Shown here piece by piece: positions 4,019 to 16,673 of a stretch of 64,000 nt of DNA. Every line of letters starts with the position of its first letter. Positions within the stretch are counted from its first letter, which is position 1. The stretch is from NCBI GenBank assembly GCA_014763895.1, contig JACXUM010000005.1:1-64000 (forward strand), in the 5' to 3' direction. The notes beneath the pieces are model-generated. The model was not told where the DNA came from and did no database searches. It saw only the letters and a list, made by a program, of their open reading frames with translations. The stretch is from Campylobacterales bacterium (GTDB lineage Bacteria; Campylobacterota; Campylobacteria; Campylobacterales; Sulfurovaceae). The position numbers were made by a program, and so were the translations under genes.

Positions 4019-4320
4019 AACCCTATTTCATCCAATTCTTTGAACTTAAAGGCCTCCATGATCTCCTCGATAGTCTCTTCCTGACGTTTGACAAGCACCA
4101 TCATACCTTCATTCATAAAATCGATATAGTTTTCAAATTTATTCTCCAGAATGATGAAGTCTATCCATTCATCCCCGATAAGGCCTCTATCTTCATAAAA
4201 GCTCACCGAACGGATCTCACCGTCTTCAAATCGTATCAATGCCCAAGCTTGTTTATTGCTCAACGATGCGATCTTGGAACTTATATCCGATGGACTTTCC
4301 ACAGGGATTAAAATCAACAT
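4015..4320 (-). CDS. Conserved hypothetical protein, 101 aa, NifX/NifB-C-terminal-like fold possible
   Basis: The 101-residue product starts [20 protein letters not shown] and continues with [22 protein letters not shown]. The opening beta strand ending in a P-V and a following short loop plus the strand WALIRFEDG resemble the dinitrogenase iron-molybdenum cofactor (NifX/NifB C-terminal) fold, but the similarity is by eye and weak. The gene overlaps luxS at its start (ATGTTGA) and mnmD at its end (ATGA), so all three are likely translated together. Function unknown. Confidence 0.7.
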
Positions 4321-4832
4321 ACCGTACCCTTTGTAAGCATTTCATCATCCAATTTCAATTTTTTATTGCTCATCGTCGTGATACCTTTATCCAAAACGTT
4401 ATGTGCAATCTCCTGCGCTTGTCTGAGTGAATGCATTTTGCATGTACCACACTGATAGATATTCAACTCCGGTATATCCGTCTCACTTTTGACCTCCAAG
4501 ATATCTTCCATCGCTTTTTTCCATGCTTTGGCAACCTCTTTTTTCTTTGGTGTACCCAATAACGACATATAAAAGCCGGTACGGCACCCCATCGGTGAAA
4601 TATCGATAATCTCTACATCCTTACTATTGAGATGGTCCCTCATGAACCCGGCAAAAAGATGCTCTAATGTATGTGTACCCTTTTCGCTCATAATCTCTTC
4701 GTTCGGTTTGCAAAAACGCAAGTCAAATACCGTGATATCATCTCCGCTTGGTGTTTTCATTCTTTTTGCTACACGCACAGCAGGCGCTTCCATCTTGGTA
4801 TGATCAACGGTAAAACTATCCAGTAATGGCAT
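4314..4832 (-). CDS. luxS: S-ribosylhomocysteine lyase
   Basis: Cleaves S-ribosylhomocysteine to homocysteine and the autoinducer-2 precursor DPD as part of the activated methyl cycle. The 172-residue protein has the LuxS opening [14 protein letters not shown], the metal-binding HTLEH followed by [10 protein letters not shown], the catalytic-region [11 protein letters not shown] and the third metal ligand in [10 protein letters not shown]. Length is slightly over the common 155-170. The start has a clear GAGGAA ribosome site and a TATAAT box about 25 bp further upstream. It leads a three-gene overlapping operon with the 101-residue gene and mnmD. Confidence 0.96.
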
Positions 4833-14078: not shown

Positions 14079-15548
14079 ATGGCACGATTGGTAGTTATGG
14101 GTGGTGGTGTTTCAGGACACACTGCCGCAACATTTGCAAAAAAGTGGCTTGGAAATGATCATGAAGTAGTGGTTGTTACACCAAATTCACTATGGAACTG
14201 GATCCCGTCCAATATCTGGGTAGGGGTTGGAGAGATGACAAAAGAGGATGTTACATTTCCTCTTGCTCCGGTATATGCAAAAGCAGGTATCGACTATAGA
14301 CAGGCAAAAGCGGTTTCGATCCATCCAAACGGGGGTACAAACAGTGACAAACCTTATATCACAATCCAATATACAGGGCAAGGCAAAGAAGGTCAGACTG
14401 AAGAAGTAGCCTATGATTATCTTGTCAATGCGACAGGTCCAAAGCTCAACTTTGATGCAACGCCTGGATTAGGTGACGGGAATGGGCAACTTGGTTCTAA
14501 CACGGTATCTGTTTGTACGGCAGACCATGCGGTACATGCAAATGAAGAACTTCAAAAGATCTTCGATAAAGCAAAAACCCAAAAACAAAAGATTCTTGTC
14601 GGAACGGGACATGGTATGTGTACATGCCAAGGTGCTGCTTTTGAGTATATCTTCAACATTGAACACGAAGCAAGAAAAGCAGGGGTAAGAGACAATCTTG
14701 ATATTCAATGGATCTCAAATGAATCATTCCTTGGAGATTTCGGTATTGGCGGGCTTCATATGAAACGCGGTGGTTATGCGGCAAGTTCCAGACTCTTTGC
14801 AGAATCACTTTACTCAGAAAGAGGGATCCCTTGGATTATCGGAGCACATGTTAACAAGGTAGAAGCAGGCAAAGCGCACTATGAACTTCTTGACGGGTCA
14901 ATGAATGAAATAGAATTTGATTTTGCAATGTTGATCCCGCCATTTGCCGGTGTAGGTCTTAAAGCGTATGACAAAGACGGTTCAGATATGACAGATCAGA
15001 TTTTTGCACCAAACGGATTTATGAAAGTTGATGCAAACTATGCTGCAGGTGCGTATGAAAACTGGAAAGCAAGCGATTGGCCAAGAACATATCAAAACCC
15101 GATCTATAAAAACATGTTCGCATGCGGTATCGCTTTTGCACCTCCACACTTGATCTCTAAGCCGATGAGTTCACCAAACGGTACACCGATCAACCCGACA
15201 CCTCCAAGAACAGGTATGCCATCAGGTATTATCGGTAAAACCGTAGCACACTCTATCTGTGATTTGATCAAAGAAGGGCCAAATGCGCATCTTCATGAAG
15301 CTTCAATGGCAGAAATGGGTGCAGCATGCGTGGCATCAGCGGGTAAAGGACTTTTGGACGGTACAGCCGCGGCATTGACCGTATATCCTGTTGTTCCAGA
15401 CTTTGAAAAATATCCTGGGCTTGGTAGGGATTTGGATTATACATTCGGTGAGATCGGACTTGCAGGACACTGGATCAAACATATCCTACACCATATGTTC
15501 ATCTATAAAGCAAAACTGAATCCAGGCTGGACGCTTATTCCTGAATAA
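14079..15548 (+). CDS. sqr: Sulfide:quinone oxidoreductase
   Basis: Membrane-associated flavoprotein oxidising sulfide to sulfane sulfur and reducing the quinone pool. The 489-residue product begins with VVMGGGVSGHTAATFAKK (FAD-binding Rossmann) and NWIPSNIWVGVG, typical of SQR. Candidate redox cysteines are Cys146 (SVCTADHA), CTCQGAAFEY near 190 and ACGIAFAPPH near 350; the last is followed by an SKPMSSPNG region rich in Pro. A C-terminal amphipathic part ends KHILHHMFIYKAKLNPGW, suited to membrane association. It belongs to one of the longer SQR types of Campylobacterota; I cannot assign the type number with certainty. Followed by a 54-codon gene. Confidence 0.92.
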   Translation: MARLVVMGGGVSGHTAATFAKKWLGNDHEVVVVTPNSLWNWIPSNIWVGVGEMTKEDVTFPLAPVYAKAGIDYRQAKAVSIHPNGGTNSDKPYITIQYTGQGKEGQTEEVAYDYLVNATGPKLNFDATPGLGDGNGQLGSNTVSVCTADHAVHANEELQKIFDKAKTQKQKILVGTGHGMCTCQGAAFEYIFNIEHEARKAGVRDNLDIQWISNESFLGDFGIGGLHMKRGGYAASSRLFAESLYSERGIPWIIGAHVNKVEAGKAHYELLDGSMNEIEFDFAMLIPPFAGVGLKAYDKDGSDMTDQIFAPNGFMKVDANYAAGAYENWKASDWPRTYQNPIYKNMFACGIAFAPPHLISKPMSSPNGTPINPTPPRTGMPSGIIGKTVAHSICDLIKEGPNAHLHEASMAEMGAACVASAGKGLLDGTAAALTVYPVVPDFEKYPGLGRDLDYTFGEIGLAGHWIKHILHHMFIYKAKLNPGWTLIPE

Positions 15549-15593: not shown

Positions 15594-15758
15594 ATGAAAG
15601 AAATAGAAAAATATGTAAAACCGTATGATGCGAACTTTACAACAATGATCCCAACAGGGTTTGTAAAATATATGAGAACCTGCGTTATTTGGCAGATCAT
15701 CCGATTTATCATGATCAATATCAAGATGCTTATCGTTGTAAGAAAAAGCCACGGTTAA
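15594..15758 (+). CDS. Small amphipathic/membrane protein downstream of sqr, 54 aa
   Basis: An ATG with AAAGGAACTGG upstream opens a 54-codon frame ending in TAA at 15756-15758, 45 bp after sqr. The product starts MKEIEKYVKPYDANFTTMIP, has GFVKYMRTCVIWQIIRFIMI, a hydrophobic but Arg-interrupted helix, and ends basic (VVRKSHG). The single Cys lies in the helix. It is too short for most automatic gene lists. The location suggests a partner of SQR, for instance helping membrane docking; that is inference, and no family is recognised. Confidence 0.65.
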   Translation: MKEIEKYVKPYDANFTTMIPTGFVKYMRTCVIWQIIRFIMINIKMLIVVRKSHG

Positions 15759-15863
15759 TCTGATAAAAGATGGGGTCTTCGGGCTCTATCTGCTACTTCT
15801 TCAAAATATTTTTAAAAACCTATCTTAAATTTTCGGCTTTTACAAATATTTTAAAGGTTGTAT

Positions 15864-16673
15864 ATGGTCAAAGAACTGGTTATCTACCCTGATGAACGTG
15901 TCAATATTGCATGTACGGATGTACGGAAATTTGATGAAAAGCTGCATGAGGTACTTCAAAACATGAAAGATACCATGCAGGCTCATAACCTTGAAGCGCT
16001 TAGTGCCATACAAATCGCAATACCTTATAATATCATTGTGATCAAACATGAAGATGAATATCTTGAATTCATCAATCCCCGTATTATCAAAACCGAAGGT
16101 AAGTTCGATTCGGTCGAAAAGACACTCTACTACCCAGATATAACACAAACAATTTCACGTTATGAAAAGATCAAGGTCGTTTATGAAAACCGCTTTGGGA
16201 ATCCAAAATATCAGGATATTTCAGATCCCAAACTTTCAGCTACGTTACAACGAAAGATCGATTATCTCTTTGGAGGAACCTTTTTAGACAAACTGAACAA
16301 GGCACAAAGACAAAATGTTCTAGATGCTTTAGCCAAAAACGGTCTGGCAGTTTCCCAAGAGGTATGCCCGGTCTTTTCCAAGAAGGATTATTTTGTAAGC
16401 TTTACGGACAAATTGCTTATTGTGATGGGGCTTACACTTATAGCACCGCTTTTTACTTCCAAGGAAACGGTTGCAACGCTTTATGCGATAGATAAAATCT
16501 TACTGCCGACCATCCTTGTTTTAATAATAGGATTCTTTTTCTATGCCCAGTATGAAGCAAAAAAATACAGGCAATGCAGCAGCTGCCAGATCGGAAACAA
16601 CATCGGTGTGATCATCAAACGTAGTGTTGCAGCTATCATTTTAAGTATTGCTGCTTATTTTGTCTTGGGATAA
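15864..16673 (+). CDS. Degenerate peptide-deformylase-fold protein with C-terminal membrane domain
   Basis: Residues 1-150 align by eye with peptide deformylase: an N-terminal YPDERV-like start, then EALSAIQIAIP in place of GLAAPQVG (Gln50 kept, Gly lost), VEKTLYYP (84-91) in place of EGCLSVP, with the Cys metal ligand gone, and LQRKIDYLFGGTFLDKL in place of LQHEIDHLxGxLFxDKL, where both metal His are Arg130 and Tyr134 and the catalytic Glu is Lys131. The metal site is therefore missing. The last third has about three hydrophobic helices and a CSSC pair in a cytoplasmic loop. Start chosen at ATG 15864 after AAAGG; a TTG two codons upstream is possible. Function unknown; enzyme activity is unlikely. 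Confidence 0.8.
   Translation: MVKELVIYPDERVNIACTDVRKFDEKLHEVLQNMKDTMQAHNLEALSAIQIAIPYNIIVIKHEDEYLEFINPRIIKTEGKFDSVEKTLYYPDITQTISRYEKIKVVYENRFGNPKYQDISDPKLSATLQRKIDYLFGGTFLDKLNKAQRQNVLDALAKNGLAVSQEVCPVFSKKDYFVSFTDKLLIVMGLTLIAPLFTSKETVATLYAIDKILLPTILVLIIGFFFYAQYEAKKYRQCSSCQIGNNIGVIIKRSVAAIILSIAAYFVLG

Follow-up and report, generated by a model that had tools for sequence, protein, structure and literature searches.

The 64,000-nt window analysed here (positions 1 to 64,000 of contig JACXUM010000005.1, assembly GCA_014763895.1, from a Campylobacterales bacterium of the Sulfurovaceae) carries on its forward strand a cassette of three genes in the order SQR, SM microprotein and pseudo-deformylase. 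The first gene (14079..15548) encodes an SQR-like flavoprotein of 489 aa; the second (15594..15758), found by reading and tblastn, encodes a 54-aa microprotein (SM) with one membrane segment predicted by eye; the third (15864..16673) is an intact ORF for a membrane-anchored protein of 269 aa, whose ATG at 15864 coincides with the start position in its homologues.

The N-terminal domain of the third protein (residues 1–150; 15864..16313) has the fold of peptide deformylases (PDFs), as the original prediction had proposed. The Pfam family PF01327 (Pep_deformylase) covers residues 3–149 (2e-28; 99.4 bits, cut-off 22.8), and in a Foldseek search of the PDB with an AlphaFold2 model built from the family alignment (pLDDT 89.9), the top rows were all PDFs, with target-normalised TM-scores of 0.76–0.94 and the H. 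pylori PDF in first place; these matches to PDF crystal structures rule out a non-PDF fold. The NCBIfam model of the PDF enzyme, TIGR00079, gave 78 bits, below its cut-off of 104. Two other PF01327 genes in the same genome have far higher scores and intact motifs, so the protein is a third, divergent paralogue. Alignment with these two PDFs, together with conservation in the family, located the remnants of all three motifs. The motif 1 remnant (LEALSAIQ, residues 43–50; 15990..16013) keeps its Gln as Q50, as had been noticed earlier from the sequence. In motif 2 (EKTLYYP, residues 85–91; 16116..16136), EGCLS has become E85-K-T-L-Y, with the Cys ligand replaced by Thr87 and E85 retained. In motif 3 (QRKIDY, residues 129–134; 16248..16265), QHExDH has become Q129-R-K-I-D-Y134, in which Arg130 and Tyr134 stand in place of the two His ligands and Lys131 in place of the catalytic Glu, while D133 is retained. 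Every residue by which an active PDF is recognised (the Cys of EGCLS, the two His of HExxH and the catalytic Glu) is therefore missing. The loss of the metal ligands and of the catalytic Glu had been predicted correctly, but the proposed correspondence of EGCLS to VEKTL was one residue out of register, and the Glu of motif 2 is in fact kept as the invariant E85. Judged from its sequence, the protein is a metal-less, membrane-tethered and non-catalytic pseudoenzyme with a PDF fold.

Motif conservation was counted over 104 distinct homologues that reach the motif region, none of which contains HE..H or EGC. The substituted residues recur at Arg130 in 91/104, Lys131 in 84/104 and Tyr134 in 77/104 homologues, so that this pattern and the helices, whose conservation in orthologues had been named as a check, are indeed conserved; the variants are Arg, Gln or His at position 130, Lys, Met, Gln, Thr or Tyr at 131, and Tyr, Phe, Met, Ile, Leu or Trp at 134. 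E85, R99 and D133 are invariant and Q50 nearly so, and the pocket Gly at position 45 is Ala in 68 of 103 homologues. The high conservation of the Arg130/Lys131/Asp133/Tyr134 cluster could be taken to mean an active enzyme with relocated, metal-free chemistry; this is highly improbable, since several lineages have Met or Gln in place of Lys131 and Gln or His in place of Arg130, and the cluster does not form a fixed catalytic set. Mean entropy is 1.23 bits in the three former active-site motifs and 1.96 bits elsewhere in the domain, and random contiguous blocks were equally conserved in 0.16% of draws (p = 0.0016). Such conservation would not be expected of a drifting pocket, and the altered site therefore probably binds or docks a partner or ligand.

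The pseudo-deformylases resemble canonical type 1 PDFs (PF01327) in sequence, in fold and in the residues Q50, E85, R99, D133 and N71, and differ from them in the absence of the three metal ligands and the catalytic Glu, in the addition of three helices, and in forming a single clade of their own (support 100/100), separate from 31 canonical PDFs that all retain HExDH and EGCLS (31/31). This one-clade tree and the family-wide loss of HE..H/EGC rule out a recent mutant; the original prediction had hinged on a PDF fold and on the absence of orthologues with HExxH/EGC ligands, and both were found. Type 3 PDFs, for example those of S. aureus and S. pneumoniae, are accessory proteins, weakly active or inactive, with substituted motifs I and II (PMC12690207). 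Compared by description, the pseudo-deformylase is likewise an accessory PDF-like paralogue with substituted motifs, but its motif III is also replaced and it carries a membrane domain in addition; the words Campylobacter and transmembrane did not turn up in a text search of PMC12690207.

The dN/dS ratios in nine close pairs were 0.03–0.12 for the whole gene and 0.02–0.19 for the separate domains. The family is under strong purifying selection, as had been supposed from the intact gene, and a degrading pseudogene is ruled out for the family by these ratios. A homologue in Sulfurovum mangrovi (NZ_CP087125.1; 6001-6816 of the fetched locus) nevertheless reads with internal stops, and its annotation splits it into two 'peptide deformylase' genes. 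The annotation is likely a database error, and such genes may lead to too many accessory PDFs being counted. The 395-kb S. mangrovi 'plasmid' also bears rpsI and rplM, and so may be a part of the chromosome or a chromid. Of 150 Sulfurovaceae genomes, about half contain full-length homologues; a profile of the membrane domain detected family members in 125 of the 399 Campylobacterales genomes searched, in several family-level groups, and in a phylum-wide draw matches were found in 81 of 397 genomes, every one Campylobacterales. A viral-contig scan with the membrane domain returned no relative, and a BFVD search with the PDF domain returned phage PDFs only; on these two results, a viral origin was rejected.

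The PDF domain is followed by the three membrane helices and the C-S-S-C pair that had been read from the sequence. By AlphaFold2 secondary structure and hydropathy, the helices span residues 174–196 (16383..16451), 200–234 (16461..16565) and 240–268 (16581..16667), and C238-S-S-C241 (16575..16586) lies in the loop between helices 2 and 3 and at the start of helix 3. The mean net charge is +2.6 for the helix 2–3 loop and -0.2 for the helix 1–2 loop. By the positive-inside rule, the CxxC loop and the PDF domain should therefore both be on the cytoplasmic side. The membrane domain has no Pfam family above cut-off and no PDB relative. Both C238 and C241 are present in 107/107 sequences, and C168 in 95 of 104 homologues. 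Together with a Cys of SM (C30, in 91/92 sequences), these residues might hold a metal or an Fe-S cluster that passes electrons or senses sulfide, and the CxxC helix shows a weak, sub-threshold likeness to FeoB-associated Cys-rich membrane proteins (PF12669) in 18 of 30 members (best E, 0.0045). We consider such a metal-binding membrane subunit improbable, as C168 is not universal, the PF12669 match of the first family member is far below the Pfam cut-off (17 versus 27 bits), and there is no solved homologue. In two genomes, SQR and SM are followed at 0–1 nt by a 98-aa membrane-only protein (4051-4347 in locus L217 and 4264-4560 in L218), which takes the place of the third gene and has the Cys pair without the PDF domain. 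Retention of the Cys pair in this version would place the core function in the membrane part, and the PDF domain would be an added element for docking or regulation.

The first gene of the cassette has A. aeolicus SQR as its best PDB match (3hyv; 8e-42), and the structures nearest to its model (pLDDT 73.7) in Foldseek were type I SQRs. Also among the structure matches was YjlC–YjlD of B. subtilis (PDB 9a63), in which a small protein partners YjlD, a related monotopic flavin quinone reductase of the NDH-2 type; its likeness to the cassette is in the way of working only. The SQR cysteines C146, C181/C183 and C417 are conserved in 109–110 of 110 homologues, and A416-C417 is invariant across 17 aligned SQRs. 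An Ala directly before the C-terminal active Cys is the exception described for type IV SQR (PMC9666304), and type I SQR is absent from Epsilonproteobacteria (PMC4584964); taken together, the A416-C417 match and this published distribution suggest that the partner SQR is of type IV. It shares the three SQR cysteines with SQRs of types I and IV, such as A. aeolicus SQR (3hyv), and differs from them in the conserved microprotein linked to it and in its facultative link to the pseudo-deformylase. At window positions 14619-14627, C181-T-C183 forms a conserved CxC at a site occupied by a single Cys in A. aeolicus SQR. Apart from this gene, the genome has only one distant SQR-like match, at 31% identity. 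Expression of a type IV and a type VI SQR gene of S. indicum was reported to rise about 2-fold during sulfur reduction (PMC10045233).

SM is unannotated and has no Pfam or NCBIfam match, and across 92 sequences it contains the near-invariant residues R28-T-C30, Q34, R37-F38, N42, K44-M45 and K51-S-H53. In the fetched loci, it adjoins this SQR wherever the SQR copy is intact, whether the pseudo-deformylase is present or not, and it may itself be a small subunit of SQR. In several Sulfurovaceae genomes that lack the pseudo-deformylase, SM is followed directly by rpsI–rplM, and in some lineages that have it, the gap between SM and the pseudo-deformylase is 0–15 nt. In the window, a terminator-like hairpin (15768..15791, forward strand) found by the consensus scan lies between the two genes and may weaken their co-transcription; the same scan gave four terminator-like sites in the region, with 2.4 expected.

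The genomic tie between the pseudo-deformylase and SQR is well supported. SQR is next door in 23 of 26 loci of the first set, and order-wide, 99 of 134 copies of the pseudo-deformylase lie directly downstream of SQR on the same strand. Among the 399 Campylobacterales genomes, 119 of the 125 carriers also have SQR (Fisher p = 2.7e-42, a value that ignores phylogeny and is descriptive only, since shared ancestry inflates the synteny and co-occurrence statistics). As to the six carriers without SQR, three copies are at contig ends, two genomes are 79% and 57% complete, and one match is weak (E, 5e-4). Conversely, 72 of the 191 genomes with SQR have no pseudo-deformylase, which is therefore not needed for SQR function as such. 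The remaining 35 of the 134 copies are not beside SQR, being in other neighbourhoods, such as that of recR, or at contig ends. Solitary copies adjoin recR in four loci (L204, L205, L237 and L238) and are near a carboxymuconolactone-decarboxylase-like gene, assigned by reading, in three (L208, L210 and L233); in some genomes, a cassette copy coexists with a second one at another site. These 35 copies, the upstream hairpin and shared ancestry would all be compatible with an independent membrane protein, whose adjacency to SQR reflects inherited synteny or regulatory convenience and no functional tie. Several observations make this unlikely. The three-gene order is unchanged amid varying surroundings, 79 cassettes (115–424 bp from SQR to the pseudo-deformylase) being found in 28 flank combinations in which the rpsI–rplM neighbours also vary. 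The protein almost never occurs without SQR, the six exceptions in 125 genomes being mostly contig ends or incomplete genomes, and its presence or absence changes at least seven times on the SQR tree, implying several gains or losses. Counting against the tie, the pseudo-deformylase evolves much faster than SQR, with identities to the window copy of 33–76%, as against roughly 70–90% for SQR.

The third place in the SQR cassette points to sulfide oxidation, and it is reasonably likely that the pseudo-deformylase is an accessory subunit or modulator of SQR, acting as its facultative, non-catalytic membrane partner, a molecular role that we infer. Many sulfur-oxidising bacteria keep the protein, which probably serves as an unrecognised aid to sulfide respiration and not as the 'peptide deformylase' of the databases. 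The original prediction had instead put forward the sensing or binding of formyl-Met peptides, a lipid or heme, which can no longer be the leading idea in view of the SQR cassette, the frequent Ala at position 45 and the membrane-only version. A related reading is a formyl-peptide or nascent-chain sensor or chaperone, in which the PDF fold holds N-terminal peptides at the membrane uncleaved, perhaps aiding membrane-protein insertion. The strongly conserved pocket with its nearly invariant Q50, the membrane anchor with a PDF domain predicted to be cytoplasmic, and the existence of solitary copies agree with such a function. It is nevertheless quite unlikely, and less likely than partnership with SQR, given that the metal ligands are gone and the Gly at position 45 is often lost, that the genomic partner is SQR and no translation or secretion gene (rpsI–rplM being inconstant neighbours), and that the membrane-only version dispenses with the PDF domain altogether.

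A likely course of events for the SQR partner is that a Campylobacterales-type peptide deformylase was duplicated, lost its metal site and had a three-helix membrane domain fused on. SQR, SM or some other ligand would then dock at the reshaped pocket (Thr/Ser87, Arg130, Lys131, Asp133 and Tyr134), and the CxxC that opens helix 3 might take up or reduce sulfane sulfur from SQR, or else sense the redox or polysulfide state and gate SQR. Such a specific sulfur-handling role of the Cys pair is proposed from its chemistry and is speculative. The fuller arrangement, in which the PDF fold, exapted and non-catalytic, forms the cytoplasmic portion of the third subunit of an SQR, SM and pseudo-deformylase complex, with the CxxC handling sulfane sulfur or gating the enzyme, is put forward tentatively, as plausible but somewhat short of probable.

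In the open-licence literature, we found no report of the pseudo-deformylase family, of a link between deformylase and SQR, or of a small subunit of SQR, and, according to PMC4584964, it is still unresolved what the different SQR types do in Campylobacterota of vents and sediments. The usual view of SQR is that of a single monotopic protein; the two- and three-gene cassettes offer candidates for its anchoring, for sulfur hand-off and for regulation. Pseudo-deformylases with a fixed, reshaped pocket are a widespread family in the Campylobacterales, and if the three-subunit complex proves true, it would make this SQR a multi-subunit enzyme and give the PDF fold a new use.
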